DNA of 64,000 bases from Clonostachys chloroleuca (lineage: Eukaryota > Ascomycota > Sordariomycetes > Hypocreales > Bionectriaceae). Below are positions 8,730 through 40,650 of this stretch, one piece after another. Position numbers and translations under genes: made by a program. Numbering within the stretch: position 1 is the first letter of the stretch; each line of letters opens with the position of its first letter. The notes below the pieces were generated by a model that did no database searches, was not told the DNA's origin, and worked only from the letters and a program-made list of their open reading frames with translations. Where the stretch lies: contig JBANAY010000003.1 in assembly GCA_037952775.1 (NCBI GenBank), positions 36,332,001-36,396,000 of the forward strand. The letters run 5' to 3'.

Positions 8730-10052
8730 CTAGTTCCACTCCTGCTTCAGGAACTCTCGGATAACGTCAGAGACGGGAGTGGCCTTGATCTCCAGACAAC
8801 CAAACTTGCAGTCAGCCGGGCACTTCGGGACGTGCCCGTCAAGCAAACCCTGCTGCTCGCACAGCTCCCGCCGGTGCTGGGCGAGCCGGGCATATGCCTC
8901 CCATTTCTGGAGGTTGATTGTAATGTTCTGGTGTTTGCGGAAGTAATTTCCCCAGATGCGCTCCAGTCGCGGATTGCTCATTGATGAGAGGAGGGTGTCC
9001 CAGGAGAAGCAGGCCAATATGTAGGAGCCCTCGCATGTGGCCTCCCAACTCCACTTGTTGCGGTTCAAACCGAGGCACTTGGCCAGCATCTCTACTTCGT
9101 TTTTGCGTGCCTCTTCCACCGCCTCCCTGCTGTGAGGCTCGAGGTGGTACAAGTCCATAATGTAATGCTTGTGGACCGGCCAGTCCTCGTTGTATGGGAC
9201 CTTGTCGAATGAGATTGTAAGTTGATCCGGCGCAATGTATGCCACGAATTCGCGCTTGGGAGAATTATCGGGAGGAGTGCGGCAGCCAGGATCCGGGCTT
9301 GGCAGGTCCGACTCCGAATCATCGTCTGCAAGCTCATCGTCTGCAAAATAATTCATAGAGCCGGAAGAGGGAAGATCGACTGAGTTGGAAAAATCATCCG
9401 GAGTGTGGGAGGAAGTACTCGGGCTCGACAACTCCAATCGAGTTTCATTCTCGGCGATCCAATGGAGAGATCCAGAGGAGGGAGCATAGAATGGAAACTC
9501 CTTGTTTCGGAGCAACCGGTAAGCTTGGGCGGAATGAGCCAAGGAGACGAACTCAACGGTGAGCGCCTCGAATCCGGGGTTGTGGTTGTAGTCAGCATGC
9601 ACGACAGTTTTCTCACCGCCCACGGCGCAAATGAAGAACCAGACGGCGTTGATCGGGAAATTGTCTATCTTGAAGCGACGAGTGACTTTTTTGAATGCCG
9701 AAGCAAACTTGGACCGGTGGGTTCGGCCAGGGACGAGCCACACGTCTGCAGTGCGGCGGGTTTCGCTGTCCTCATACTCAAGGTAAAAGTTCGAGTTGGC
9801 CGACCAAGAGAAGGTTGCGGCTGAGTTGGCCGAAACGAACTCAATGCTGGCAGATTTGGTTCCCTGGCCTTCGACCTTGGCCGTGTCGAAGAGAAACACA
9901 TCGGCGACTGGGCCGAAGCCGCGGACACCCCTAAGAACCTGGGCGATACTGACTCCGGATGGAAGGTTACTGATAGTTATTCTGCGGCTCTCATTGGGGT
10001 TGTCGTGGTCAAGCACAAACTTGCTTGAGCGAGGGATCATCTGGATGGGCAT
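8730..10052 (-). CDS. RRM-like orphan protein (440 aa), parent-type of array fragments
   Basis: Single uninterrupted frame. The N-terminus (residues ~20-85) reads as an RNA-recognition-motif-like fold: ITISNLPSGV as RNP2, GVRGFGPVADVFLFD as the helix and second strand, and KSASIEFVSANSAATF as the RNP1-like strand. A second similar segment may lie around residues 135-200 (ALTVEFVSLAHSAQAY). The middle is acidic and low complexity (ELADDDSESD). The C-terminal region has LERIWGNYFRKHQNITINLQ and a CPADCKFGC cysteine group. I know no function; RNA binding is an inference. Pieces of a close paralogue lie on the opposite strand at about 14.8, 17.35, 17.6, 18.5, 18.8 and 19.1 kb, so this gene or a relative contributed material to the hairpin array. 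The first ATG of the frame was used as the start. Confidence 0.75.
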   Translation of the reverse strand: MPIQMIPRSSKFVLDHDNPNESRRITISNLPSGVSIAQVLRGVRGFGPVADVFLFDTAKVEGQGTKSASIEFVSANSAATFSWSANSNFYLEYEDSETRRTADVWLVPGRTHRSKFASAFKKVTRRFKIDNFPINAVWFFICAVGGEKTVVHADYNHNPGFEALTVEFVSLAHSAQAYRLLRNKEFPFYAPSSGSLHWIAENETRLELSSPSTSSHTPDDFSNSVDLPSSGSMNYFADDELADDDSESDLPSPDPGCRTPPDNSPKREFVAYIAPDQLTISFDKVPYNEDWPVHKHYIMDLYHLEPHSREAVEEARKNEVEMLAKCLGLNRNKWSWEATCEGSYILACFSWDTLLSSMSNPRLERIWGNYFRKHQNITINLQKWEAYARLAQHRRELCEQQGLLDGHVPKCPADCKFGCLEIKATPVSDVIREFLKQEWN

Positions 10053-13000
10053 TTCATGGCGTAGCCGCGCAAGAAATTCCTAATCTCTTGCACTACTTTC
10101 CTCGAAAGCCATTGTTGGTGTTCCGAAGCAAAGTCTTGAAAGCTGGTAGAGAAAACTGATGCGATGAAGTCTTGAAGTAGCAGAGCGTGATGAGGGCTTC
10201 AGGTTCTGCCCTCAGAAGTGTGAGAAGCAGAATGCAGAACGAAGGTGGAGAAAGCAGGAGAAAGGAAGGAGCGGCGAGGGAAGCAGGAAACTTTCCAATT
10301 TGCGAGAGGGTTGTGCGCTATTGTGCGGGAGCCGAGACAAAGGGGGATCCGGGCATCATGTACTTGTGTCGAAGAGTCTCTTTGGAGCTCAGCAAGACAT
10401 GTGGCAGACATCCCTCCCAACACCAAGGAGTTACAACAACACCAGGCCGCAACTCATAGATAGCTGATTCCGCCTCGGACCATGGTGTATTCCCTCTTAA
10501 ATAGACACTTCGGTATATGCTCTCGTTCGAAATAGGTTTTCTGCTACACTAGAAAGGCAGAGGGTTAGTCTGATAGTTCATACTTAGACAGGGGTACATA
10601 CAGTTGTACTACTCAGTAAGTGTCCACTCCAAGCCAACTCATGGGTCAGTTAAAACTCTTCAAAGAAGGGTCCCAACCATAAAAAATAGACGAAAAGCTC
10701 TAACATGTCCATGGGCAATGGGAATATGCACAATGAAACCACTTCCTGTGTTTCAGGTGTGTTGAAAACATAACTGTTGAAATTGTGCCGTGTTGGTATC
10801 GACAAGCGCTGTACTGTCAACTGTGTGTAGGCTCTGGTCAGGGGTTCGAAGTAACGGCCCCAAATATTCTGAGCCTGGGGTTGATGAAGACTAGTCACCT
10901 GGGACAGGTTGCCATATTCGTTCGCCCAAGGCTTGGAAAGGCATGACGAGTTGCTACGCCTTGTCTTCTCAGGAACTTGTTGAGTCTTTTATCCAAGATG
11001 ATCAGCGATGAGGGATATCTGTCACCCATATATGGGAATGCAATGCTCAAAACGGTTCGGTCGCATAAGCAGCGATACCCAAAGGCCGTTCGTAAGCTCA
11101 TCAGGCCCGAGGGCTCTTTTGCAGGATGAAGAAACGCGGTTGGGCCTCAACCATGGGGAGGTCACTTGGTGTGAATGAAGCTTCTCATGGTCCTTTATCA
11201 CTTTTGGTAGTCTCGGAATCGGGTCCTTGGTGGCCTGGTGCAGGCATCATGATTTTCATCTCGCCACTTTTCGAAAGGCGCGAGGATGCTTGGGAGCTTC
11301 CTGTGTTTTTTTTTGTGATCTGCCTCAGTAACATCGTGATGATCCCTCTCTCTTTTGAACACTTTATGCCGCATGATGCGTAAAGTTTTGTAAAATGTTT
11401 TCTTTCTCGTCTTCGATGATTTCGAGTCGCGGGAGGGCTGGTAGTGCTTCGGGGAAACGACGTTTGTTGTCTCCGGGGGGATGACTTGGAAGATGTGTCA
11501 GGTTTTGGATGAGTAAATATTGGAGCAAGGATGAGGAAATACGTCAGACTGGTGATGGAGAATGCTTGGAACTGAGAGGCTTCAAGACTGACTTGGTCGT
11601 TCTTGGAAAAGTTTGAGGGACGGACACGAATAGTGTGATGTGTGCACCAATGCTGATCAATGTTGGACCTTTTTTTCTTGGAAAGAGTACAGAAGTGAGC
11701 ATCTTCCTGTGAAACAAGTCGATGTGGAATAGAATCAGACAAATATGAGGGATGAAGAAAGGCAAGAAGTAGGGGGCGGGGAAAATAACACAAAGGAACT
11801 CTGAGTTCGCCCGGGACGTAAACAATGACTGGGTAGCCCCTACGCACTGTTCATGAAAACACCACGAGCTCCGTGCACGCTTCTAGAAAATATTAAAACG
11901 AACTAAGATACTGTAACTAAGTACGAGTCTGTTTTAGAACACATGAAAGGGTTTGTGGGGTGCGAGTTGGCTCTGGATACAGCGAGGGTAAGGGGTTGTC
12001 ACCCGGAGCACTACTGTCACCTTCGCGTCGCGGATACACGAACAACAAATAGCCATCACCACTGTGAACATGATATTGGGCATGCAATGTTTCTATAGGA
12101 GTTTATTTATGCAATTTTCTTAGACTGGGGAGGCATTGTCCGGGAAATGATCAAGTAACGCGCACGCGCCGACCGACCATGACACGATTTCCTGCCTCAC
12201 CCTTCGATCTTGGAAAGAAAATACATGGACATGAAGTTCAAATGAGCATCATTAAAGCTTTTCCTAACAATTTTAATGTGAATAAAAAATTATGTTGGTC
12301 GTGATTGTCGTGCATTCAAGAGAAGGGAAAGGGGGGAAATTATGTGTGCCTGGGTAGAGTGGGAGTGACTCACTGCTTTGGGTCAAAAACACCAATTCCA
12401 TCTATTCTGTGAGTTTGAGTGGCTTCATAGGTACAGTTCTTGGATAGAGGCTGCTAATGGCTGGCGGGGGTTGAGGGGATGCTGTGGAGGGAGGCTGTAG
12501 AGGGATGCCTTGGGAGGAAGCCAGGAGCGGCTGGCCTGCCAAGTTGCAGACCATGAAGCCCAAAGCATTTTGGCAAGCTAAAAACACCGAAAAAAGACTT
12601 CACGAGAAGGAATAATTATATCAGGATCCCACCTGGGAGGAGGATACATTGGGAAGCGTGGACTTTGGGGCACAGACAGCCTTGATGGGATGTACTGTCC
12701 ACTGGAATAGGGACATTATTCTTGAGGCTCGTGCCCAATTTTCTCCGCAATATTTGGGACTTTATTTATCCCTATGAAGTGACATATATTTTAGATCTAA
12801 TGGATTCGTCCTAGGCGTAGAACATCACCCATGGGCCAACCATGCAGGACTTCACCGCCCCGTTTTGCCTCATAAGGTGCTGAATACCGATGAAAAGGCC
12901 GTTCTCTCATGAGTAGCCCGACATATGATACTGAAGGTTGATTCACCACCCAGAGGAATTATGGACAATATTTAGGGGGACTTTGTTGAGCGGTTGCCCA

Positions 13001-14760: not shown

Positions 14761-14900
14761 ATGAGAAGCTTCAACTCGAAGTTTCTCGGAGTGATCTCGT
14801 CCGCTACAACCCTTCGAACAAAGTTTGCGCTCGACCACGTCAAACCCACGAATGAGAGCCGCAAATCCATAATCAGCAATCTTCCATTTGACCTTCTCTG
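14761..14900 (+). pseudogene. N-terminal fragment of RRM-like gene
   Basis: The plus-strand translation TKFALDHVKPTNESRKSIIS, continuing NLP, matches the start of the intact protein at 8730-10052 (SKFVLDHDNPNESRRITIS), then diverges. The orientation is opposite to the intact gene. It is a detached fragment, too short to be functional. Confidence 0.7.
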
Positions 14901-16187
14901 GATGACTTCTGCCAAAGTATCGTGTCTTTTGGCAGCGTTACTACAGAAGAGAATTTCATGTGGCAGCCCCTGTGGCCGCGACACAGTCCCCAGCCTACGC
15001 ATCCGCCCCTGAGGTACAACTCCCCGTTCTTCTCCCCAACTGCCTTGAAAAATTGCTAATTTTCCTCTCGGATCTAGAAGATTCCAATCTCATCCTTTTG
15101 ACGCAATAATCACAATGAATTGGTGCGGAAATCAGGGTTTCTTAGGGCAGTTGCCCTCGTTTTCACGCCGCTGGGCGGGAGTTGGTGGCGCGGGTCACCC
15201 CCAAACAACTCCTTCTTCCACCCTCCACCCTCCACCTTCTCCCTTCTGCAACTCACCACCCACACGCTTCTTCAAGCCCTTCATACTACTTCAAGCCTCT
15301 TGCACTTCATCGTTCATTCATCCATTCATTTAATGAATGATCATAGCACCCAACACACTTCATAACATCCTCAACACATACATCATCCTACTCTTGATGC
15401 TGTTGCTGTCTGCAACTCATCGTCGCATGGCCTTGACCTTCACCAGAGCTGAGCATCAAAGAAAGTAGCGACATCCTGAAGCAACTTCACCCTCTTGGTC
15501 TGACTAAGGGTTGCTCTATTGAACGAAGTCATACCTAGTTGTCCCGTGGTGGCTCCGGTTTCATACTACACACATCCTTGGCAAAGAACCCTCTCTCACC
15601 ATGGCGAGTGGAAATGCCTACATCACTTCTTCCTAGCGATAACTTCATTCGCTTCATCTACTCATTGTAAATTCATCAAAGTTTCTCTGGTCATCATCGC
15701 CTTTTTACCACTTCAACCCATACCTCCTGTTGTGTCTTGTACCAACAACCTGTTCTTCATCATCGCACTGCATACTATCATGAGATACGGTGACCAAGCA
15801 TTCATCCATCTCTACGGTCTACCAAATGAAGCCCTTGAATCTTCAAGATATCCTGTTTCCTCAAAGACTGGACAATAAAAAGCCCCTCTTACAAGTTTTC
15901 TTCCTGGCAGTGGCCGCACCAACACTGCTCCTCTCCCCTGATCGAGACGAGCGGTGCGATACCAATACGCCTGAACTTGAAAAAAAAAAAAAAAAACACC
16001 AGCATGAGTCCCACACATACCTCCCTTCCATTGCAGACATGTCTCAAAGGATGATTCCCAATCTCACATTCACGCCTGCGTACACCCTCATTACTTCCAT
16101 GGCTGTCTCCATCAATCACCAAAGGACCTCAAGCCTACGGAATATCCCGACCCGAAGTCAACCCCCGCAACGAAGAACCTCACTGAA

Positions 16188-16232
16188 ATAGAATTGCACT
16201 ATCGCTTAAGGATGTGGCACGGGCAATTCTAT
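16188..16232 (+). repeat. array hairpin H1
   Basis: The arms ATAGAATTGC and GCAATTCTAT are perfectly complementary (10 bp). Between them lies the core with inner stem GCT/GGC around the loop TAAGGATGT. Confidence 0.8.
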
Positions 16233-16296
16233 CTGATAGTCGTCTGCAACAATCTTTTCTCTGCGGCGCCAAGGGGAGGGAGATCCGGTTGAATGT

Positions 16297-16359
16297 GGTA
16301 TCTAGAGCATTGTATCGACGCCTAAGTATGGGGCATGATCAATTCTCGACAATGATACC
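16297..16359 (+). repeat. array hairpin H2
   Basis: The arms GAGCATTG and CAATTCTC (16305-16312, 16340-16347) pair with one mismatch. The inner stem is GCC/GGC around TAAGTATGG. An outer stem GGTATC/GATACC extends the fold. Confidence 0.8.
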
Positions 16360-16414
16360 AGCCCTCTCCGTGATGGTCCCTGGTAACTACTAACTGGTGG
16401 TGGTTTGGTGGTTA

Positions 16415-16457
16415 GAGAATTGCCTCAACGCTTGAGTATGTGGCATGTACAATTCTC
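16415..16457 (+). repeat. array hairpin H3
   Basis: Perfect 8-bp arms GAGAATTG and CAATTCTC. The inner stem is GCT/GGC around TGAGTATGT. Confidence 0.8.
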
Positions 16458-16479
16458 GGTGATCTACGGAACTGGCGAA

Positions 16480-16845
16480 AGCAGCCAGATGGCGGCAAGA
16501 AGGCGGTTCCTCATTGGAGCCATCCAGTTCTTTGATGTTCAAAACAATAATGACCTTCATTGGGCAACTATCTTTGACCGACAGACCGGTACTCTGTATT
16601 ATATTGATACACTCGTTCCTGGCAGAGAGGAACGATTCAAAGCTGCCTGTTGCTCAGTGCGAAGTTTCTGGACCCAGCAAGGCCATCCCTTTACGTTTAC
16701 CGCGATCTGCCTGAACCTTACATCACAGGACAAGCCGGGTTCATCTGGAGTACTTGCGATCTTTACTTTTTGGATGATGATCAGAGGCCTTGTGGGTCGT
16801 GATCTCCGCGCCCTGGACCTTACTCAAGTGCTCCCTGAGGATTGA
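16480..16845 (+). pseudogene. Ulp1/C48-like cysteine protease fragment
   Basis: An open segment with the protease pattern HWATIFDRQTGTLYYIDTL (candidate catalytic His and Asp), followed by FTAICLNLTSQDKPGSSGV where the family has Gln...(S/D)CG. The expected nucleophile Cys is Ser here (TCT). There is no upstream initiation context: the frame reads through hairpin H3 and ends at hairpin H4. Such domains occur both in SUMO proteases and in transposon-captured genes. It is an inactive fragment by inspection; the family call is moderate. Confidence 0.55.
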
Positions 16846-16877
16846 CCAACGCCAAAGTATGTGGCAGGGCAATCCTC
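16837..16877 (+). repeat. array hairpin H4
   Basis: Perfect 8-bp arms GAGGATTG and CAATCCTC. The inner stem is GCC/GGC around AAAGTATGT. Flanking CCCT/AGGG and GTG/CAC can extend the stem. Confidence 0.85.
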
Positions 16878-16910
16878 GAGGGCGACACGGGCCGTATCGC
16901 ACGCCTCTTC

Positions 16911-17066
16911 AATACTTCGTTTCGACAGCAGAGCGGCACCTCGAGTTAATCGCCGATGGCCAACTATACCCAGAGTATGCCAAGGAAGCCTTCGCTTTCT
17001 ATAGCCTGCTCCGAGATAAAGCTGCCCCGGTCTTGGCGAAGCGATCCGGAGACGGCCCAAAGTTTT
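16911..17066 (+). pseudogene. unrecognised coding fragment between H4 and H5
   Basis: An open segment reading AERHLELIADGQLYPEYAKE, then AFAFYSLLRDKAAPVLAK, with a coding-like helical pattern. No start codon belongs to it and it ends in hairpin H5. I do not recognise the family. It is probably one exon or piece of a captured gene. Confidence 0.45.
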
Positions 17067-17103
17067 GGGTTGCCCAACGCCTAAGTATGTGGCAGGGCAA
17101 TCC
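17067..17103 (+). repeat. array hairpin H5
   Basis: The arms GGGTTG and CAATCC pair with one G-T wobble. The inner stem is GCC/GGC around TAAGTATGT. The 3' flank CTCGAGGACGACACC resembles that of H4. Confidence 0.75.
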
Positions 17104-17111
17104 TCGAGGAC

Positions 17112-17314
17112 GACACCGCCAGGTTAGCCACCTCCCAGCGGACCTGATCGAGTCCTTCGTCCAGAACGAGTACGCGACTCTCAAATGGCTTTCGAAAACT
17201 GGTATACCTGTTATCGAAGCTTACGGATATGGCCTTGCAAGCGACCCATCCAACCGCGTTGGTGTCAGTTATATATTCCTTGGTGTCATGCCAGGCAAGC
17301 CTCGCACACACTAG
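17112..17314 (+). pseudogene. APH-type phosphotransferase, N-lobe fragment
   Basis: The translation LPADLIESFVQNEYATLKWL, then GIPVIEAYGYGLASDPSNRV and SYIFLGVMPGKP, matches the N-lobe pattern of fungal aminoglycoside-phosphotransferase-like proteins (helix with E-x-x-T/L-x-W, then VP.VxxY). It stops at TAG 17312-17314. The matching C-terminal part lies 4.7 kb downstream at about 22.0 kb. Its start is missing upstream, where hairpin H5 intervenes. Confidence 0.65.
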
Positions 17315-17348
17315 CCATAGATCTCAAGGCTGTGTTCGTGCACAACAA

Positions 17349-17424
17349 GTTGACGTTCCTAGCCGAACCCACCGGTACAAATTCACTTCAGCATTCAAAA
17401 ACGTCACTCGTCGCTTCAAAGACC
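17349..17424 (+). pseudogene. RRM-like gene fragment, middle piece
   Basis: Translation SRTHRYKFTSAFKNVTRRFK corresponds to GRTHRSKFASAFKKVTRRFK, around residue 107 of the intact protein encoded at 8730-10052. In this array it lies upstream of pieces from residues 42-80, so segment order is changed while orientation is kept. Confidence 0.8.
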
Positions 17425-17508
17425 ATCAGCGCGTCTGAGGATCCAGTGCGAATCGCACAGGATCTGGGCATGTACATGACACCGAACCCATTCGTTGAGC
17501 GAGGTTTG

Positions 17509-17551
17509 AGAGGACTGGACAACGCCTAAGTATGTGGCAGGGCAATCCTCT
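17509..17551 (+). repeat. array hairpin H6
   Basis: The arms AGAGGACTG and CAATCCTCT pair at 8 of 9 positions. The inner stem is GCC/GGC around TAAGTATGT. Confidence 0.8.
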
Positions 17552-17577
17552 GTGCCTAGAGGATCATCATCGGCGGC

Positions 17578-17712
17578 CAAGGTCGAGGGCCAAGGCACCA
17601 AGTCTGCCAGCGTTGAGTTCGTGTCTGCCAACTCAGCCGCAACCTGGGGCGTCCGCGGCTTCGGCCCCGTCGCCAATGTTTTTCTCTTCGACACGGCCAA
17701 GATCGAAGGGGT
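17578..17712 (+). pseudogene. permuted RRM-like gene fragment
   Basis: The first part reads AKVEGQGTKSASVEFVSANS (residues ~58-80 of the intact 8.7-kb protein) and is followed directly by GVRGFGPVANVFLFDTAKIE (residues ~42-61). The two parts overlap at AK(V/I)EG and are joined back to front, as in a circular permutation or a truncated tandem duplication. Confidence 0.85.
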
Positions 17713-17732
17713 TATCCTCGTATGCAATGGTG

Positions 17733-17763
17733 GCCAACGCCTGAGTATGTGGCATGTGTCTCC
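17733..17763 (+). repeat. array hairpin H7 (degenerate arms)
   Basis: The core AACGCCTGAGTATGTGGCA with its inner GCC/GGC stem is intact, but the outer arms pair poorly. The 3' flank GATGGCGGCACCACCAG resembles that of H8-H10. Confidence 0.65.
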
Positions 17764-17849
17764 TCGATGGCGGCACCACCAGTTCCCGTCTCATCTTGCC
17801 GACTCAAAGAACAACTGAGGTGATAACTTTGGTGGCTGGTTCTGAGCTC

Positions 17850-17912
17850 GTGGTGCTGAGAGAATTGATCGACGCCTAAGTATGTGGCAGACAGTTCTCG
17901 ACGACGCACCAC
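17850..17912 (+). repeat. array hairpin H8
   Basis: The arms GAGAATTG (17860-17867) and CAGTTCTC (17892-17899) pair with one wobble. The inner stem is GCC/GGC around TAAGTATGT. A 7-bp outer stem GTGGTGC/GCACCAC is perfect. Confidence 0.85.
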
Positions 17913-18055
17913 CACTTGGATTCTGGCTCCTCCACCAGCTACTAATCCAGCTCGGCTACCACCACCACATCTCAGCACAATGGCTGCCGTCCAAACTCCA
18001 ACTATCCTCGCACCAGAGCGAGTGACAGAAGAAGGGCTTGTCCGCTGAGACAAGC

Positions 18056-18443
18056 AAGCAATTTGGTCCTTCCAGGGGATGGACCCGCACACCATCTCCC
18101 AGGTGTGCAAAGACTCGAGAGATATAGTGCAGAAGCAAGCATTGCGTCGCTTTCAGGGGGAAGACCACAACCACCATCACGACCAAGGGACAGATTGTCT
18201 ACGCCCAAACGTTGGCTATGCGGAGAGACTGCCAGCGCCTAAGTATGTGGCAGTGCAGTTTTGATGGCGGCATCAACTTGGTCCTTCCAAGGAATGGACC
18301 CACACACCATTAGCCAAGTGTGCAAAGACTCTAGAGATATAGTGCAGAAGCATTGTGTCGCTCTCCGGGGGAAGGTCGACACCCCCATCACGACCAAAGG
18401 ACCGGTCATATATGCCTGAATAGGCGACTCCGAGAGACTGCCG
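18056..18443 (+). pseudogene. tandem pair of 2EXR-like fragments
   Basis: Two copies of the same piece, about 18056-18232 and 18283-18443, each ending in a hairpin (H9, H10). Copy 1 reads FQGMDPHTISQVCKDSRDIV, resembling the 'L-x-VCxxSR' segment of fungal 2EXR proteins. Copy 2 carries a small internal deletion and loses the frame. Both copies and both hairpins are closely similar, so unit and hairpin were duplicated together. Confidence 0.65.
18214..18276 (+). repeat. array hairpin H9
   Basis: The arms GAGACTGC (18225-18232) and GCAGTTTT (18255-18262) pair along all 8 positions with G-T wobbles. The inner stem is GCC/GGC around TAAGTATGT. Outer ATGC/GCAT and GTTG/CAAC can pair. Confidence 0.8.
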
Positions 18444-18470
18444 GTGCCTAAGTAGTGGCAGTGCAGTTCT
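18434..18470 (+). repeat. array hairpin H10
   Basis: The arms GAGACTGC and GCAGTTCT pair over the inner six positions. The loop is shortened to TAAGTAGT. It is a near duplicate of H9. Confidence 0.75.
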
Positions 18471-18503
18471 TGATGAAGGCATCACCATTCCCCAGAAGAT
18501 CCC

Positions 18504-18665
18504 CCGCTCAAGCAACCTTGCCCTGGACCACGACAAACCCAAGAATGAGAGCCGTAGAATCGTCATAAGTAACGCCAGAGTCGAAGGACCTTGGAAAGAA
18601 GCTGACTTCTTTCCACTTGTTCAACATGTTCTTGCAGGAGCTCCAAGATGATATTTGGACAGCTG
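18504..18665 (+). pseudogene. chimeric fragment: RRM-like N-terminus joined to 2EXR start
   Basis: The first ~75 bases read ALDHDKPKNESRRIVISN, matching the N-terminus of the intact protein at 8730-10052. They are followed within about 20 bases by KDLGKKLTSFHLFNMFLQEL, the typical N-terminal 2EXR segment that recurs intact at 19.77 kb. Two unrelated genes are thus fused without a hairpin at the junction. Confidence 0.7.
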
Positions 18666-18731
18666 TCTCCGCCACCACCGGTAGTACCTCGGCGGGTGAT
18701 TGAGAATGATGAAGTTGGCGACATCTAGAGA

Positions 18732-18764
18732 GCTGGCCGACGCCAGAGTAAGTGGCATGGCAGC
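18732..18764 (+). repeat. array hairpin H11 (degenerate)
   Basis: Short arms GCTG and CAGC. The core is CGCCAGAGTAAGTGGCATGG with inner GCC/GGC retained and the loop changed to AGAGTAAGT. Confidence 0.6.
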
Positions 18765-18766
18765 AC

Positions 18767-19130
18767 GACTGGAGCGCGTCTGGAGAATTCTCTTCCTCAA
18801 ACACCAAAACATCACCGTCAACCTGCAGAAATGGGAGGACTACGCCCGAGCCGGCGGGGGCTGTGCACGCAGCAGGGTCTGAAAAGACAGGCCTCTCCGG
18901 AAACACCTTACCATACCTTTCGTTACGATACCAGCGAGGATTTTGAGACAGAAGGAGCCTATGATGGAAAGCCATCGGCTCTGAAAGGACGCGCCTCTCC
19001 TGTTTCTCAGGACGATGACTATCGTTTCGAGACCAGCAAGGATCAGACTATTCTGCCGAATGGACGGATCCCGAAGTGTCTCACTGACTACAAGTTTGAT
19101 TGTGTGGGAACCAAGGAAATGGATTTGAGA
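18767..19130 (+). pseudogene. C-terminal fragments of RRM-like gene
   Basis: Two pieces in original order: LERVWRILFLKHQNITVNLQ, continuing KWEDYAR (18767-18850), and NGRIPKCLTDYKFDC (from 19058). They match LERIWGNYFRKHQNITINLQ and GHVPKCPADCKFGC of the intact 8.7-kb protein. About 200 bases of unrelated or highly diverged sequence separate them, and the frame is broken. Confidence 0.75.
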
Positions 19131-19373
19131 TGGTCAAGAAGAAGTCGCCTCAATGGAGTTATCCTCTGAACCCAACCATCACACTTCTCTCAGCAGTAAG
19201 TAGCCCAGCATTCCCCCCATTGCAACATCAGTGTATCCTCTTTCATCGGATCTTACTAACATCTTCTCATCATTTTCCAGTGAGAACAAACATCTGCCTT
19301 TGCTGGAAGCAAGGCCATCCTCTCTCTCATGAACGATTCGGTCTGGGATCTGGAGTTGAGTGCGGAAGATGGA

Positions 19374-19433
19374 GATGCGGAGAGGACCGACTAACGCCTA
19401 AGTATGTGGCATGTCGGTTCTTAACGATGCATC
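19374..19433 (+). repeat. array hairpin H12
   Basis: The arms AGGACCGAC (19383-19391) and GTCGGTTCT (19413-19421) pair along 9 positions with one wobble. The inner stem is GCC/GGC around TAAGTATGT. The outer stem is GATGC/GCATC. Confidence 0.8.
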
Positions 19434-19554
19434 GTCAACCTCGTAACCTGACGGTACGCTGGGTGAGTCGATTCAGCTTGTCTTCTGTCCAATTTCCCTC
19501 GTTCAGTCTGCTAATGAATGAAAGGCAGTCCACGCGATAGAGACCGCTTGACGG

Positions 19555-19619
19555 GGTCGACGCTAGGAGAGCTAACCGACGGCAAAGTATGTGCCATGGT
19601 AGCTCTCCGGCGTTCGACC
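19555..19619 (+). repeat. array hairpin H13
   Basis: Perfect 9-bp arms GGAGAGCTA and TAGCTCTCC (19566-19574, 19600-19608). The inner stem is flipped to GGC/GCC around AAAGTATGT. Outer GGTCGA/TCGACC and CGC/GCG pair around one bulge and reach into the following gene piece. Confidence 0.85.
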
Positions 19620-20127
19620 TCTCAACGCCGGCTTGCTCTCCCGTTTCGTGGGCTACAATGGCCCGGAAGATCATTGACGAGCGACGGTGGCTGAGAACAA
19701 CGAGATTTCCCTTCCAGTCGCCGAGGCGACCATCAATCCTCTCCCCAAGCTGGGGATCCACCGCCCAGTCCGAAAGGACCTTGGAAAGAAGCTTGCTTCT
19801 TTCCACCTGTTCAACCAACTCCCACAGGAGCTGCAAGATGAGATTTGGCCCGCGATGAAGTTACCGATGAGGAAGGCAACAAGATTTGCCGACCCCCGCC
19901 AACCATGACGGAAACCCAGGCCCTACTGGCTTCCCGACAGGATGAGATGGAGGACTACGAGGCGGCGATGCTGGCCGCCTGGTCAGAAGAATGGATGTAG
20001 ACTCTGCCCAGCAGCAATACACCCAACAGGACTCCGACTGGAAGCGCAATATCGCCTTGGTCATTCTTAAAGATGAACGAAATCAACTTACCCTGTCGAT
20101 GATGAGTGGCAGTGTATGGGGGGCTTG
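19610..20127 (+). pseudogene. 2EXR-type fragment between H13 and H14
   Basis: It begins with a diverged copy of the unknown helical unit (GGCGTTCGACCTCTCAACGC at its head, then NGP-like residues). It switches to PLPKLGIHRPVRKDLGKKL and FHLFNQLPQELQDEIWPAM (19735-19860), the N-terminal motif of fungal 2EXR proteins. A short frame ALLASRQDEMEDYEAAMLAA follows, then VDSAQQQYTQQDSDWKRNIA up to TGA at 20125-20127, inside H14. It is a composite without an intact frame. Confidence 0.6.
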
Positions 20128-20159
20128 ACCGACGGTAAAGTATGTGCCATAGCAGCCCC
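20118..20159 (+). repeat. array hairpin H14
   Basis: Perfect 7-bp arms GGGGGCT and AGCCCCC. The inner stem is GGT/GCC around AAAGTATGT. Confidence 0.8.
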
Positions 20160-20162
20160 CAA

Positions 20163-20590
20163 ACGGCGTTCGACCTCTCAACGCAGAGTTATTTGCGTAT
20201 CTCTCTCGCTTTGTGGGGTATAATGGCCCCGAAATCAACGACGAACGGCGCCGCACTTACGTGCAGCATAAAGAGAGAGAGCTCTCAAAGATCCTCTTCG
20301 TCGCCGAGGACGAATTCGCCAACGGCTCCCCGCCGGTCCATTTCCTGCCGCTTTATGGTATAACTCTCTACTCTCGTCACAAGCATTCTCTCAACTTCTC
20401 GAATCCTGGGCCACAAGGAAACAAACGGAATACAACAAGAACAACTTTGTTGCGCTCTGCCTTGAGTTCACTTTTCTCGGGTATGAACGGGAGTACTTCG
20501 CCGACACCAGCGAGGAGCGAAGTATTGAGCATGTTGCATACCACCACGAGCTCAAATCTCGTGATGAGTTTAACGATGAATGAATCAAGA
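20163..20590 (+). pseudogene. unknown helical protein unit, copy A
   Basis: Translation NAELFAYLSRFVGYNGPEIN, then KERELSKILFVAEDEFANGS. After a frame change at about 20365-20400 it continues LLESWATRKQTEYNKNNFVA, LEFTFLGYEREYFADTSEER and HVAYHHELKSRDEFNDE up to a stop. The sequence is helix-rich and I do not recognise it. The same unit recurs as copy B, and its head recurs after H13. It starts right after hairpin H14 and ends shortly before H15. The frame change may be a short intron (GTATAA donor) or decay. Confidence 0.6.
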
Positions 20591-20607
20591 ACAGACTCGA
20601 CAATGAG

Positions 20608-20651
20608 GCGGGTTGACCGCCGGCTAAGTATGTGCCATGGCACTGCCCCCC
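20608..20651 (+). repeat. array hairpin H15
   Basis: The core ACCGCCGGCTAAGTATGTGC has the flipped inner stem GGC/GCC. The arms pair only at GGG/CCC, because the 3' arm runs into a 10-base C tract. Outer CAGA/TCTG and TCGA/TCGA can pair. Confidence 0.65.
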
Positions 20652-20661
20652 CCCCGGAACG

Positions 20662-20928
20662 GAGTTCGACCTCTGAACGCAGATTTGTTTGCGAATCTCT
20701 CTCGCATCGTGTTGCTACAATGGCCCTGAGATCAACGACGAACGGCGCTGCACAAGAGGGAGACCTGTCAAAAGTGCTCTTCGCGGCTGAGAGTATCTTC
20801 GCAAATGGCTCTCCAGCAATCCACTTTCTTCGCTCTTCTCCCCGTACCGGGAGTACTTTGCCGACGCAAGCCAGGAGAGAAGCGTTGAACATGCAGCATG
20901 CCACCATGAGCTAAAACCTCGCGATGAG
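20662..20928 (+). pseudogene. unknown helical protein unit, copy B
   Basis: Diverged and shortened copy of unit A: DLSKVLFAAESIFANGSPAI, then YREYFADASQERSVEHAACH and HELKPRDE in another frame. Internal deletions break the reading frame. It is followed without a gap by the candidate intron at 20929-21006 that contains hairpin H16. Confidence 0.65.
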
Positions 20929-21006
20929 GTTAGTGTCTAGGGGATTGACGACGGCTGAGTATGGGCCATGGCAATCTTTCGATCATGACACTAACCTCCG
21001 AGACAG
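20929..21006 (+). other. candidate intron containing array hairpin H16
   Basis: The hairpin arms GGGGATTG and CAATCTTT (20940-20947, 20972-20979) pair along 8 positions with three wobbles. The inner stem is GGC/GCC around TGAGTATGG. The perfect 12-bp outer stem GAGGTTAGTGTC/GACACTAACCTC (20926-20937, 20987-20998) contains a GTTAGT donor on one side and an ACTAAC branch-like site on the other, with CAG at 21004-21006. Removing the 78 bases joins HELKPRDE to ETSADRIARLEADSF in frame. Splicing itself is inferred. Confidence 0.7.
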
Positions 21007-21110
21007 GAAACCAGTGCCGACAGGATCGCGCGTCTGGAAGCAGATAGCTTTCTTGCCGAACTTGGGAAGCATTTGGAAGATACCACGCTTGGTGCTTCGA
21101 GTGTAGGCAG
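21007..21110 (+). pseudogene. coiled-coil-like exon after H16
   Basis: It reads ETSADRIARLEADSFLAELG, then KHLEDTTLGASS, in frame with unit copy B once the H16 intron is removed. The pattern is coiled-coil-like. It ends in the 5' outer arm of hairpin H17. Confidence 0.55.
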
Positions 21111-21180
21111 TGTCTAGGGGGTTGACCAACGGCTAAGTATGGGCCATGGCAACCCCCTTCGGTGATCGCATGCGAAGCAC
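21092..21180 (+). repeat. array hairpin H17
   Basis: Perfect 8-bp arms GGGGGTTG and CAACCCCC (21117-21124, 21150-21157). The inner stem is GGC/GCC around TAAGTATGG. The distal outer stem GTGCTTCG/CGAAGCAC is also perfect, giving a foldback of about 90 nt. Confidence 0.85.
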
Positions 21181-21480
21181 ACGAGAAGGATCCTGTCTGG
21201 ATCATGCAAAACCAAGTGCTATCAAGAGCCCCTAAATGGCCACAGCACTTGACCGGCATTCGCAATGTACTAGTCGAGATCCAGCACAAGAAACTTCTCT
21301 CTCAGGCGGGAGTGAACAGTCTCTTGACGATCATGCTCTACGGCCTCGAAGGTGTTATGAGCAAAATCTCCTCACCACTGCGCATCTGCATGTACCAACA
21401 GGGAAATGTCTATGTTCCCGCGTTTTACAGATCTCCTCCTACTGATCATCAATACCTTCCTGGGACACAACTCGTCGATC

Positions 21481-21520
21481 GAGGTTTGCCGCCGGCTAAG
21501 TACGTGCCATGGCATCCCTC
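21481..21520 (+). repeat. array hairpin H18
   Basis: The arms GAGGTTTGCC and GGCATCCCTC pair at 8 of 10. The inner stem is GGC/GCC around TAAGTACGT. Confidence 0.75.
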
Positions 21521-21728
21521 CACGAAAGAAGCAGAGGCAACAGCTGCAGAGTCAAATGCGTCGATCCAGTCGCAACGAATCCCGAAGTCACTTGTCCGGG
21601 ATCCTCCTTACCATCCTGCTGTAGTCTCCCTCTTCAACAACCGGGAGACTATCTATGTCAACAGAGTACGACGATCAACTGCAACAGACGTGCCTCCTGC
21701 ACTATCTTCAGGGCCACAATCTTCGATT

Positions 21729-21768
21729 GGGGTTTGCCGCCGGCTAAGTATGTGCCATGGCATCCCTC
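21729..21768 (+). repeat. array hairpin H19
   Basis: The arms GGGGTTTGCC and GGCATCCCTC pair at 8 of 10, with one wobble. The inner stem is GGC/GCC around TAAGTATGT. Outer CTTCG/CGAAG can pair. Confidence 0.75.
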
Positions 21769-21874
21769 GACGAAGTATCAACTGGCAGCTTGCTCGATTG
21801 GAAGCGATCCGGAGAAGACAGAGAGTTTTGGCTGAAGCACATGGATGACAAGGGAGACCATATCCGCGTCGATC

Positions 21875-21914
21875 GAGGTTTGCCGCCGGCTAAGTATGTG
21901 CCATGGCATTCCTC
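21875..21914 (+). repeat. array hairpin H20
   Basis: The arms GAGGTTTGCC and GGCATTCCTC pair at 8 of 10. The inner stem is GGC/GCC around TAAGTATGT. This is the last hairpin of the array. Confidence 0.75.
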
Positions 21915-21990
21915 GAAGATGACATCTCTAGAGAGTCAGAGGCACATCGAATCAAGATGTCTCAGTCCTTAGGAAACGTCCTATTCCAAA

Positions 21991-22246
21991 TCACAATCGG
22001 ATCCTCCAGATAGGTTGGTCGATGACAACTACAACATCAAGTCGATCGTCAACTGGCAGCTTGCCCGATTCGTCCCGACGGAGGATGCCTTTGACGCCAG
22101 TCTCTTCACCGCAAACATGAGACAGTTGTACGGCGGCACACCTGAGCTGAGCATCGACGACCATGTGTTCAGTAGTATGCTTCGAGACACTGGCGATCAT
22201 GATTTAGTCAAGTTTGCATCATCAGATGAACTTGCACGTCGATTCT
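21991..22246 (+). pseudogene. APH-type phosphotransferase, C-terminal fragment
   Basis: Translation VDDNYNIKSIVNWQLARFVP, then EAFDASLFTANMRQLYGGT... with a run FDASLFTANMRQLYG and a terminal DELARRF at a stop. It matches the C-lobe of fungal APH-like kinases, where DDNYNI-x-SIIDWE-x-A carries the Mg-binding Asp. Here that Asp (IDW) is Asn (VNW), so activity would be lost. A scrap of the same segment (NWQLARLEA) lies after H19. The N-lobe piece is at 17.1 kb. Confidence 0.7.
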
Positions 22247-24392
22247 AACTTGGGCTCACGGGCGGCTTCGGTGGCACTTGTCGCAAAAGATGGCGGATCC
22301 TCATTGGGTTGTGCGGGAGTTTTTTTCGAACAGGAATGTAACAAAGATATCACCACCCTGCACATCTGGTAAACCAGAACAGGTTGGACAAGCGGATGCT
22401 GGGGCGTGTCCTATTCGAACAAGAATATAACAAAGACAACTCGAAGATTTGATTGAAAGAAACTGGGAGTTGTAAACTCGAAGATGGTTTCTCTGCTGGT
22501 TCAGAGGGCGACTCACACTCAAAACACACATACTTGGAGAGAGAACCTTGATTCTACACCACACAACTCACTCATGTTCACCCAGAATTCCGCTGCCGAC
22601 ATTCCATTGAGACTTTTGAATTCAATACAATTCTTTTGGCGTCTGACTTGGTCGTCTCACAATCGAAGCAAGCACACATTCGCTGTCGGGTCTGGCATCT
22701 TCTATTGTTGTTTAACTTTATATCGAATCTTTTACGCACACAGGCGCATTCCTGGCTGAGATGCAATGGCGCCACCTTCGACAACACACGTGCGCGAAGC
22801 TGAGGCACTTGTGGAGGCGTCAAATACCACTCGACTTGCCGGCTTCTCCAGATACATTGGCCATTTCCATCATACACTCAAACTCAGCCTCAGCGACAGA
22901 TCCCTCACTCCCAATCTCCAACCGGAGATTGATTTGTCAGACGCCCCTGTTGTTATACTTCAGCATACTTGGCGATCGATTGCCACAGAGGTTTATCGCC
23001 TCACAAATATTACACCCAGGGCAAAAGCCGAGCCTCGTCTGCGCCAATTGAGCATAATACAACAAGCCACCCATCGTTTCTCCCCATGGCCGCTTACTTC
23101 GGACAGCCAATTGGTCCAGACACTCAGTTCAGACGGCCCAAGGGGCTAGCTTATCTAGGGAAAACGTCCGGGAAGTTTATTGAACCCGTACTGACTTCAA
23201 CATTCAACAAAAAATAATGAAAGAAAAAGAGAGGGAGAAGGGGGGAGAAAAAAAGAAACAGGGAAAAAAAAAAAGGACGAGAAGAAGAGAGCGAGAGGGG
23301 GAGGGAGAGAAGAAAGGAAGAAATGAGGGGAGAGGGGAAAGAAGGGGGAGAAGGGGAAGAAATAGTCATCACCTTTTTGGGCAGCCTCCAACACATCACT
23401 CAGAAGATATGGCTGGCCTACAAGAAACAAAACAAGGGAAGGAAGACTGCACAGGTGTCAATCATCATGTACGCGTCGGGTATTGGATTTGGAGGGTTAT
23501 GGATGTTGGAAAGGTGTTTGGGCTCTGCCAATTGGGAAGATGGATGAGGTATTGCGCAAGGAGGAAGGAAATTGGGTGTACTGATGGATGAATGAGGTGG
23601 TTGGGAGGAATATCGAGAAGTCAAGAGGAGTCAGCCTGGAGCCAACACAATCGCATTTCCCGCACGCCGCCACACAAATCTCGCCAATTATCCAACCGAG
23701 ACAACAAAAAGAAGCTACAAGGGTGGATAAATCACTGGCGATCCCAAAAACAGCCCTACTCTCAAAACCGCATTTCGCCCAAACCACGAGCCGACGTTGA
23801 CCACCACAAACGTGGCACACACACACTGCTTATTCGACTTGGCGGCATCCCAACTGTCACAAGAGCCAGTCTAGCTCACGGAAACCACAATGGAATTGAC
23901 AAGATTTGCATTGACTCTTAGTGGGAACAATGGATCTACGACGTCAGCGACTTTGCCGATTAAGGTGGAGGTCTTCGATCGAGATGGAGAAGAACAAGGA
24001 TCATCCCTCTCCAATGCAACAGCTACTATCCGCAACCCTTCAGCAGGCGAACCAGAGGCCGCGCTTGCGGGAAAATTCTCTCCTCCGCGATACGAACGCG
24101 GTGAGAAACCAATGAACAACCTACCCTTTGTGGAAATCCATGTGGCAGGCTGATGTCGCCGTTATGCCAATATGACGTACCGTCACAAACCACAACCAGA
24201 GGGCCTAATGCACGCTCTTAGCCTCCTCAATGCCGCGGCTATCACAAGCAGGATATGGCCTTGCGGGCTAGAATAAATGGAAGCTGGTGCGCTCTCGCTG
24301 TTGCTGGCAGCGCGCTCGCCCACTCAACTTGGCATCCGTCCTCTTTCTCCGTCACTGAAACGCCGCCGAGAAATCAATTACAACCAACAACA
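22247..24392. other. gene-poor stretch
   Basis: A 24-base direct repeat (TTCGAACAGGAATGTAACAA near 22325, and a variant near 22416) lies just after the array. A 127-codon plus frame (22766-23149) and an 87-codon frame (23890-24153) have no recognisable domain. The purine tract is listed separately. The end is the promoter of the small membrane protein. Confidence 0.4.
23217..23362 (+). repeat. ~145-nt homopurine tract
   Basis: Almost only A and G on the plus strand, with very few pyrimidines. It consists of GA-rich and A-run segments. Such tracts can form triplex structure and, as RNA on the other strand, polypyrimidine tracts. The open frame through it (Lys/Glu/Arg repeats) is a composition artefact. 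Confidence 0.8.
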
Positions 24393-27527: not shown

Positions 27528-28262
27528 GGCCTGCACGCACATTTTACCGCATGCATTCAACGATGCGTTCTCTGAAAAATAATGGGGGGAAGGGCATAGA
27601 GTTGCACTGTACATATCTCGTTTCCAGGCGCATCAGTAGCACAATGATTTTTTATTAAAGTTCACTCACAGTAATTGGTCTCGTGCCGTGATTCACACCA
27701 TCCGAGGCTATGGGCATGACGATGGCTTTGTGCGGCACAGTTAATAGTGATCATTGAAATTGAATGGCCTCTCGCCGCAGATGATTGGCAGCAGATGATT
27801 GGCCAGTGGCACATGCACAGTGCTGCCTGGCGGTGGGCACAAAGCATAACCTGAAGGTATACACACAAAAGCCGCTGATTGGGCCTGCATCTGCATAAAT
27901 CGACGTCCTCCCGCGCTACAAACCGCTGTGCAGCCTAATGCTTCCCAAAAGGTTACGCCGAACTCTCCAAGTTGACTCATTCACCGCCGCCAATTGTGCA
28001 CTCTGTGTGTTCGTTCAGAGCAGAGTTCGCAATACATAGGGCGCAAACATGGCGCTTCTTGTGTATAAAGTTGGCGGGCGCCGGCAACTTTCCTCTGCTT
28101 CTTTCCTCCCGGCCAACCGACATCACAGCCTGCACAAGAGACTGGTTCACTCCTCCTCTCTTTCGCTTGCTTGCAATCGGCCCAAACCAAAATATATCAC
28201 GAGGTGACAGGGACAAGGACGGTGACATTTCTCCACCTCAAAGAGCCGCATTCACCTTTACA
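27528..28262. other. intergenic with promoter of DUF2828 gene
   Basis: Contains the 3' flank of the HPP gene and the upstream region of the DUF2828 gene. The long frame extends upstream to 27972, but the residues there look non-coding. Confidence 0.4.
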
Positions 28263-39700: not shown

Positions 39701-40650
39701 CAAATTGATGCCTCTAAGGCCTAGCCCCTCCTGGAAGGTCTTGATGCGAAAGTCGTACATCTGCCAGACAGCTGAGAAGGCCTCCTGGGCTCTTTCCAGG
39801 TCTGTATTCTTCATACCAAGTGCATCAAGAATGTCAGATGTTGTCTGCATGCGAAAAGCACTAATCAACGACCGTGCCCATTCACCAAAAGAAGCAAGAT
39901 CCGGACTTCCTCTGTGGGGTGTGCCCAGAAACACTACAGCAGATGTCGATCTGACCACATCTTGATACTCAGATGTTGGCCAAGCGGAGGATATCGCAAG
40001 CATCTAAGATTATTGTCAGCAATTTCTTTACAAATGGGGAAGAAAACCGCCGCACCTGTTTGACAACTATTCCACCCAGGCTATGCGCCACAAAGATGAG
40101 CCGACGGCCAGAAGGCCGTTCGCGCATGAGAGCAAACAACAGATCCTTGCTGTGAGAATGGACACTGTTCTGGTTTGTCGCACCAGAGGTATACTTGGTG
40201 ACTTTGCTATCGTAGCCGAACACGAGAACCCGTGCTTTGGGGCACCCACTAGGGAGAAGGTCTCGGGGCCAAAAGACGCATGATTCTTCGTCCTGCGAGC
40301 CTTGCGCATTAACCAATGTCTCTGATGACTGATGTTCAATGTCTGTATTATCGGACCTGCTGCCTCTAAACAGCGGGATTACTCGATGTGATATCTTTTG
40401 CTTTTTGCGCCGCTTGTCCTCGTCCTCCTCCAGCACGTCTTGCTGGTCGTGAGTTTCCCTCTTATATACCCAAGTCTTATAAGGATGCCCGTGCAAACCA
40501 TGAACGATCACGATGCTAAATGAGGCATAAGTCTCTATCCAGGCTCTTCACATCACCGAAAAGTACATGGTGGACCTACTCTACCAGGGGGGAGCATCTT
40601 TCCGGCTCGTACACCACAGATATACCCGTGTCCAGAATGTGACCCGGCAT
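36773..40650 (-). CDS. NLR-type protein: alpha/beta hydrolase-NACHT with C-terminal HLH
   Basis: Three exons, complement(join(36773..40003,40056..40515,40580..40650)), 1253 residues. Introns are 52 nt (GTGCGG...CTTAG) and 64 nt (GTAGGT...TTTAG). The N-terminal SesB-like serine hydrolase reads LVDIVIVHGLHGHPYKTW, then FVAHSLGGIVVKQ (nucleophile elbow) and VVFLGTPHRGS. The NACHT NTPase has Walker A GKPGAGKS (~435-442) and Walker B IFIDALDE (~547-554). After the winged-helix-like part (VIHQSVCEFF) the usual ankyrin, WD or TPR repeats are absent. Residues ~917-1007 instead hold a helix-loop-helix pattern (RTALRARIEALRAVVPSLNM...KAKILDGALEHIQRLEQ). The tail ends SSAGSFASVTSYR. Fungal NLRs of this type mediate heterokaryon incompatibility or defence. 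The start at 40648-40650 was chosen because the exon supplies the usual LDTGISVVYEPE lead. Confidence 0.85.

Follow-up and report, generated by a model that had tools for sequence, protein, structure and literature searches.

Integron arrays hold cassettes in one orientation that are separated by attC hairpins, whose structure is conserved while their sequence is variable. Within attC the R' and R'' boxes are conserved and the loop is variable. Helitron termini within a group are reported to be very similar in sequence (PMC5148889), while sister stwintrons of Xylariales have complementary near-terminal repeats (PMC12403724). Here we describe an array in which twenty hairpins with a near-fixed loop stand among scrambled gene pieces in the genome of Clonostachys chloroleuca Cc878. 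The window, i.e., the whole stretch of DNA that was analysed, is 64,000 nucleotides long and comprises bases 36,332,001-36,396,000 of contig C3 (37,472,460 bases). C. chloroleuca is a soil fungus. The genome used here has 59.37 Mb in 4 contigs. The published assembly has four contigs, 59.38 Mb and an N50 of 37.47 Mb; it was scaffolded by RagTag, and its BRAKER2 annotation drew on both RNA-seq and protein evidence (PMC11256822). Because of this scaffolding, long-range positions on C3 are to be treated with caution. A comparative study of Clonostachys genomes exists (PMC7896725). A search of titles and abstract beginnings, with subscription journals mostly outside its scope, found no publication on this array.

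Tentatively, we read the hairpins as sense-strand, introner-like elements that act in the splicing of a mosaic, exon-shuffled gene array, in which the 5' splice site GTATGT is predicted to lie in the near-fixed loop. The hairpins (w01 to w20, numbered from left to right) span window positions 16187-21920 and all lie on the plus strand. Both a pattern search and a covariance model find twenty copies, which agrees with the first-pass annotation of this DNA, where about twenty hairpins with an almost constant loop had been described. The model, built from 16 copies, gives the 20 array matches at E <= 8e-4 and one chance-level match (E 0.95) elsewhere in the window. From the outside in, a hairpin is built from a variable outer stem (in some copies), arms that form a stem of 8 bp, a short and asymmetric internal loop, the inner stem and a loop of nine bases near TAAGTATGT. 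At <=1 mismatch, TAAGTATGT occurs 27 times in the window, where 5.7 +/- 2.2 are expected and 0/100 shuffles reach 27. The inner stem is GCC (or GCT)/GGC in copies 1-12 and GGC (or GGT)/GCC in copies 13-20; the switch between array halves that had been noted earlier thus falls at copies 12/13. Similarity among copies is limited to about 50-55 nt round the hairpin. Copies elsewhere in the genome, on which the first-pass annotation had staked its reading, do exist. Pattern searches at <=2 mismatches found three among the matches listed, at two further loci and on the minus strand (C3:36,826,149, C3:36,826,422 and C3:12,552,529). This brings the family to at least 23 copies at at least 3 loci, and the total is a lower bound, the two-mismatch search having returned 112 matches versus 58 with a reversed-pattern control.

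The folded form, not the arm sequence, is conserved among the hairpins. Across 23 copies, the pairing of arms with their own partners beats random re-pairing (duplex sum -337 versus -221 +/- 16 kcal/mol, 0/20000), with the own partner being the single best partner in only 6/23 copies. Pairing of the outer flanks with their own partners is likewise better than chance predicts (27/20000). Covariation was tested on a hand alignment of the 23 copies against a null that keeps the tree and the per-column change counts. Double-change cells number 25 versus 6.2 +/- 3.1 under this null, the covariation score is 0.156 versus 0.036 +/- 0.017 and mutual information is 2.07 versus 0.84 +/- 0.25 (0/2000 for each), while pairs with a double change number 8 versus 3.6 +/- 1.4 (1/2000). 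Plain pairing is less striking, at 152/184 cells versus 125 +/- 15 (53/2000). The earlier proposal that fold rather than sequence is conserved is upheld by these values, and covariation no greater than relatedness predicts, which had been named as a refuting outcome, is not what is seen. With a MAFFT alignment of 16 copies, three of the five measures agree (covariation score 0/500 shuffles) and the other two, which count double-change pairs and further pair types, are not unusual. Parsimony gives 3.94 changes per column in the arms and 1.47 in the inner stem and loop, an approximately 2.7-fold difference. Over the nine loop columns the changes are 3, 4, 0, 0, 1, 1, 3, 1 and 3; read as a donor, the loop is nearly invariant at +1, +2, +3 and +5, with three changes each at +4 and +6. 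Under symmetric scoring at the best offset, the 8-bp arms give 184 pairs, i.e., 149 Watson-Crick, 16 G.U, 5 A.C and 14 other. The excess of G.U over A.C on the sense strand (16:5, p 0.027, fixed 8-bp arms) weakens with a permissive aligner to 42:28 overall (p 0.12) and 19:8 near the loop (p 0.05). The sense strand forms the more stable fold in 16/23 copies. Against dinucleotide shuffles, folding energy reaches z < -2 in 11/23 copies, and w03, w07, w09, w14, w15 and the copy at locus L039 cannot be distinguished from the shuffles. The arms had been described as variable yet complementary throughout; this holds for the family as a whole, but pairing is poor in w07, w11 and w15, and w18-w20 have two central mismatches.

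The array DNA is made up of scrambled, sense-oriented pieces of five gene loci (D1-D5) that reside in the same genome; this bears out the earlier view that the hairpins separate pieces of unrelated genes. There are 28 pieces of 32-335 nt, 74-96% identical to their donors, in one orientation and in scrambled order. D1 (locus L068) is one open reading frame (ORF) of 529 residues, without a Pfam match even at E 10; its Ulp1-like label was given by eye only. D2 (L069, 514 residues) has the APH domain PF01636 and D3 (L067, 401 residues) has 2EXR PF20150. D4 lies inside the window on the minus strand (8733..10079) and is a 449-residue open frame with a sub-threshold RRM match. D5 (L070) comprises two adjacent frames (143 and 237 residues) with no accepted domain. 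The genome DNA search gave 26 matches, i.e., the array itself and 25 minus-strand matches, one of which is the L039 hairpin. A looser local BLAST added two short plus-strand matches, one between 18518-18568 and window 14825-14872 and one beyond the array at 22684-22721. As all five donors lie on one strand, sense-only capture is indistinguishable from strand-preserving DNA copying. Capture of mature mRNA was rejected, as the array keeps an intron-like stretch from the D3 5' region, which is evidence against spliced templates.

Compared with their donors in the donor frame, 26 pieces (two pieces outside donor reading frames being left out) have 235 synonymous and 208 non-synonymous differences, which corresponds to a ratio of non-synonymous to synonymous divergence (dN/dS, or omega) of 0.22. 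Differences by codon position are 113/75/255, and there are 2 in-frame stops. Pairs of array paralogues, compared over 25-84 codons each, give omega 0.04-0.24 at dS 0.48-0.99. Paralogues with a common hairpin junction give omega 0.04 for the pair A-B (25 codons) and 0.15 for B-C (84 codons), at dS 0.92-0.99. Judged from these comparisons, the gene pieces are not plain debris and carry a signature of coding constraint, which went unnoticed in the first reading. By eye, proteins of C. rhizophaga and C. byssicola hold parts of the mosaic, including hairpin translations such as QRLSMWQGNPRG. Twenty of the 28 pieces were compared, by local alignments that cover parts of pieces and in which two pieces may share one stretch. 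The array proteins of C. rhizophaga match 17/20 of these with 563/645 residues identical (87%), and those of C. byssicola match 3/20 with 144/167 residues identical. Whole donors are 89.4% (D2) and 85.5% (D3) identical to their C. rhizophaga counterparts. Gene finders prefer open stretches, and the protein comparison is therefore biased towards conservation. Conservation of the hairpin at the protein level was ruled out, as the hairpin is translated in different frames across cassettes.

The splice evidence considered here comes from deposited gene models, which are predictions. Junctions of four such models lie at or around six hairpins (w07, w08, w16, w17, w19 and w20). Exons 21204-21665, 21805-21893 and 22014 onward yield exactly the array protein V2G26_015419 (P0085), which is deposited for C. 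chloroleuca. Annotated intron 2 of this model (21894..22013) runs from GTATGT in the w20 loop to CCAGATAG, and the w20 junction DRGLPPAK/LV recurs in C. rhizophaga P0081. Mapping of the C. rhizophaga model P0074 gives a 146-nt intron from GTATGT in the w07 loop to GGCAG in w08 (17745..17890). The C. chloroleuca model P0080 has a canonical 78-nt intron round w16 (20929..21006; GTTAGT, CACTAAC, ACAG) and a 143-nt intron round w17 (21103-21245). The outer stem of w16 is 12 bp long (GAGGTTAGTGTC/GACACTAACCTC, at 20926-20937 and 20987-20998) and pairs the donor with the branch site. On the plus strand of the array, 15/18 GTRNGT words lie inside hairpin loops. Two canonical-looking introns without hairpins are also present in the array, at window 19196-19280 (kept from the D3 5' region) and 19463-19528.

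The positions of the hairpins relative to the pieces can be judged for 13/20 copies, the other seven being without assigned pieces on both sides. Twelve of these 13 lie at non-collinear or different-gene joints; twelve further piece-to-piece joints are without a hairpin. The exception is w20, which lies inside an otherwise continuous D2 (APH gene), in a 144-nt insert between two perfect GTCGAT copies (21868..21873 and 22018..22023). A target-site duplication, a criterion for introners, is thus seen at w20, the sole judgeable copy, although microhomology joining could leave the same.

From left to right on the plus strand, the array begins with w01 (16187..16237; loop TAAGGATGT, perfect arms), w02 (16303..16353; outer stem TGGTATC/GATACCA) and w03 (16413..16463; arms GAGAATTG/CAATTCTC). 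A sense D1 piece, 88% identical (16494..16828), is joined at w04 (16835..16883; arms GAGGATTG/CAATCCTC) to a D2 piece (16884..17068, from L069 5254-5070). The non-collinear D2-to-D2 joint at w05 (17063..17111) leads to the next D2 piece (17129..17301, from L069 5615-5443), which is followed by small D3 and D4 pieces in direct join (17309..17419) and by w06 (17508..17556). Two directly joined D4 pieces in reversed order (17574..17709, from window 9883-9812 and 9931-9868) precede w07 (17723..17771), which has a decayed left arm and loop GTATGT at 17745, and w08 (17858..17905; outer stem GTGGTGC/GCACCAC). Then come two D3 pieces (17955..18189, from L067 5568-5537 and 5378-5176), w09 (18221..18269) and a D3 piece (18274..18415, from 5302-5161) that duplicates, with divergence, part of the cassette before it. 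The loop of w10 (18430..18477) is one base shorter through a deletion. A D4 piece and then a D3 piece (18492..18663) stand before w11 (18726..18774; loop AGAGTAAGT, right arm partly decayed). The stretch 18766..19271 holds D4, D5 and D4 pieces and sequence of the D3 5' flank, which keeps an intron-like stretch, after which w12 (19380..19428; arms AGGACCGAC/GTCGGTTCT) and w13 (19565..19613; arms GGAGAGCTA/TAGCTCTCC) follow. Most of the left flank of w13 (about 19540-19570) repeats, in inverted orientation, the D3 piece on the right of this hairpin, where three scrambled D3 pieces stand in direct join (19608..20031). Beyond w14 (20118..20166) lie D3-locus pieces (20163..20579), of which the first starts at D3 base 4848/4849, and beyond the decayed w15 (20606..20654) lies a frame-shifted D3 piece (20659..20932). 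The cassettes after w13, w14 and w15 share their start at D3 base 4848/4849, and hairpin and piece were therefore probably duplicated together. The last part comprises w16 (20937..20985), a D5 piece from L070 (21002..21103), w17 (21115..21163; arms GGGGGTTG/CAACCCCC), a D1 piece (21187..21476) whose source in D1 lies immediately upstream of that of the 16494 piece, w18 (21478..21526; loop GTACGT), a D5 piece (21543..21683) and w19 (21726..21774). The D2 piece to the left of the w20 insert (21805..21873) is followed by w20 itself (21872..21920; loop GTATGT at 21894), and D2 sequence resumes after the insert (22018..22265). Elsewhere in the window, a 944-residue frame for a DUF2828/DUF7788 protein lies downstream of the array (27939-30770), and a 1076-residue minus-strand frame (36776-40003) matches NPHP3_N and, below threshold, AAA, making it a candidate of the STAND type.

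Outside the array, the copy at C3:36,826,422 (locus L038) has a stem of about 20 bp. At the same locus, L038:6100-6460 resembles the array in miniature: two hairpins enclose a cassette of about 270 nt, in which an ankyrin-like fragment is matched below threshold (E about 0.1). Some 70 nt at L038:5673-5743 (C3:36,825,673-36,825,743) recur at about 40 genome places among the matches listed, at 78-90% identity. At L039:5046 a lone hairpin lies at the end of a minus-strand reading frame, and nearby frames are shifted close to a G homopolymer, which may reflect nanopore error. A DNA search with w04 as query found copies in the window only, and six one-mismatch candidates beyond the three loci have no complementary arms, as judged by eye. 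The first-pass annotation knew no named element with this consensus, and the Rfam scan agrees: at gathering scores no array match was obtained, so that a known RNA family was rejected as the identity, and below threshold the array gave one sR20 match only (minus strand, E 0.045). The sole accepted Rfam match in the window is a U2 spliceosomal RNA gene at 49400-49592 (158 bits). A viral source was also rejected; 68 IMG/VR contigs contain the exact 16-base pattern, which is near a rough chance estimate.

If the hairpins are splicing elements, the fold would present the loop donor where the coding sequence is interrupted, and the spliceosome would remove the joint. The stem would hold the joint together while exposing the loop donor, provided that the deposited models reflect real splicing. 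New joints may arise from template switching or microhomology at palindromic DNA, with splice-competent joints then being retained; the arms would drift in compensating pairs while the loop would be held near the GTANGT donor consensus. An RNA role is favoured over a duplex role because of the G.U excess and the coding constraint, and we take it to be the simplest single reading of the hairpin facts. Three functions had been offered earlier, i.e., a recombination or excision hairpin, an introner-like element and a small-RNA precursor. The introner-like function gains most, from the model junctions and the w20 insert, but not in its genome-wide form, given 23 copies among the matches listed.

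Several observations weigh against the splicing reading. Acceptor signals at the hairpins are weak: CAG follows the inner stem in only 6/23 copies, and CTRAC branch words are rarer in the array than expected (5 versus 10.5). In V2G26_015419 only w20 out of three hairpins provides the donor site; w18 is exon, and intron 1 (21666-21804), which encloses w19, has the weak ends GTACGA/GGAAG. Depletion of cryptic donors was not found in the array, with 3 GTRNGT words outside loops versus 3.6 expected from shuffles. The frame of the left piece is open up to the loop in 6/14 hairpins (w05, w07, w09, w18, w19 and w20) and is stopped before it in 8/14 (w04, w06, w10, w11 and w14-w17), where the loop donor is therefore unusable for that frame; for w16 and w17 the models set the donor left of the hairpin. 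Gene models tend to put introns where frames break, and the models from C. rhizophaga and a second C. chloroleuca were placed on Cc878 DNA, not on their own. Indels occur in 8/26 pieces and are net frame-shifting in 4. Over the same segments only, donors (92% and 90%) are more conserved than the array (87%). The tree of the covariation null was derived from the same columns as the test, and the arm offsets were hand-picked with pairing in view, so the test favours the fold. Finally, a spread of three loci among the matches listed is far from an introner burst, and a genome-wide burst was rejected on this ground.

It is possible, if somewhat unlikely, that the fold acts in DNA, as a single-stranded hairpin that serves as a recombination or template-switch site where gene pieces are cut, copied and joined, and whose arms are kept complementary by self-templated repair; such a site would work in the manner of an integron attC site without being one. 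This would suit the 12/13 two-sided hairpins at non-collinear joints, the matching outer flanks and the faster change of the arms, and it accounts better than the RNA reading for the joints and for the inverted copies seen at w13 and at L038 (the latter with its stem of about 20 bp). By eye, C. byssicola P0061 has the D2 cassette and hairpin translation twice where C. chloroleuca has them once, and hairpins of RNA genes can reportedly be both created and repaired by template switching (PMC8794818). The near-fixed loop and the coding constraint are left unexplained by a DNA site, and twelve joints are without a hairpin; no recombinase domain, and no IntI-type tyrosine recombinase or integrase, was found in the 10 flanking ORFs scanned of 30 listed. 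Self-templated repair also predicts equal G.U and A.C, while 16:5 is seen, although folded sense-strand single-stranded DNA would share this bias, so the point is not exclusive. Both roles may operate together, with palindromes making joints and splicing letting them survive. An extended form of this idea, a eukaryotic cassette system whose hairpins are DNA joining sites as well as RNA splice junctions and which continually recombines pieces of resident genes into immediately spliceable mosaic proteins, is in our view quite doubtful. We consider it unlikely that the array is merely decaying, i.e., that an old hairpin repeat was duplicated in tandem by unequal crossing over and template switching and that the gene pieces are functionless pseudogene debris. 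The net frame-shifting indels and two in-frame stops, the decayed arms of w07, w11 and w15, the stops before the loop and the duplications of hairpin plus piece (w09/w10 and w13-w15) are what decay would leave. Against it, covariation exceeds the tree null, paralogues with a common hairpin junction differ mostly at synonymous sites and between species the array proteins come close to the conservation of two intact genes.

It is very improbable that the array is a silent archive of variant segments that exchange with intact genes by gene conversion at hairpin boundaries. The pieces are indeed partial segments of resident genes, largely open and sense-oriented, and in C. byssicola the second D2 cassette of P0061 has, by eye, the residues EWH and AYVFYKLL in common with the species' own D2 (P0004). 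The cassettes of C. chloroleuca and C. rhizophaga are closer to each other than to the C. chloroleuca donor, however; one 61-residue segment has 5 differences between species and, by eye, 10 to the donor. The dS of D3 pieces to D3 is 0.23-0.97, and conversion is therefore not frequent. Precursors of small RNAs (milRNAs) would have stem-loops of about the size seen (50-75 nt), and milRNAs have been studied in C. rosea (PMC8557909, PMC9275246), yet it is the loop and not an arm that is conserved here and the loop motif strings are absent from the main text of both studies, which leaves this explanation with a very small chance.

The splicing reading bears on an old question, namely how exons of unrelated genes get joined and are at once spliceable. 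With covarying joints that carry a donor motif in the loop, parents in the same genome and mosaics in sister species, the origin, selection and splicing of such joints are each directly testable. If the reading is true, the array would offer a rare chance to follow the compensatory evolution of a nuclear RNA fold in twenty paralogues at one locus.

Several known systems resemble the array in part. Helitrons also carry several gene fragments per element and have terminal hairpins (PMC5148889, PMC4289320), whereas the array has variable hairpin arms and twenty hairpins. Hairpins made by template switching share the multi-base compensatory changes and the inverted copies at stems seen at w13 and L038, but template switching is a mutation mechanism and not an element, and it does not explain the near-fixed loop and the positions (PMC8794818). 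The complementary near-terminal repeats of the Xylariales stwintrons are common to the array hairpins (PMC12403724). Introners and fungal introner-like elements are likewise short, sequence-similar elements within coding sequence with GTATGT-type donors, and the w20 insert with its 6-bp duplication is mostly removed as an intron by the gene model. Unlike introners, the array family has 23 copies at three loci among the matches listed and is not spread over many genes, its judgeable hairpins lie mostly at gene-piece joints, and it combines a conserved loop and covarying arms with no common 3' end; similarity extends not over whole introns but over about 50-55 nt only. With integron attC arrays the likeness is one of layout only, namely one orientation and hairpins that are conserved in structure and variable in sequence. 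In reverse of the R-box pattern of attC, the array hairpins conserve the loop and vary the arms. Integron cassettes are whole genes, whereas the cassettes of this array are gene pieces in eukaryotic nuclear DNA.

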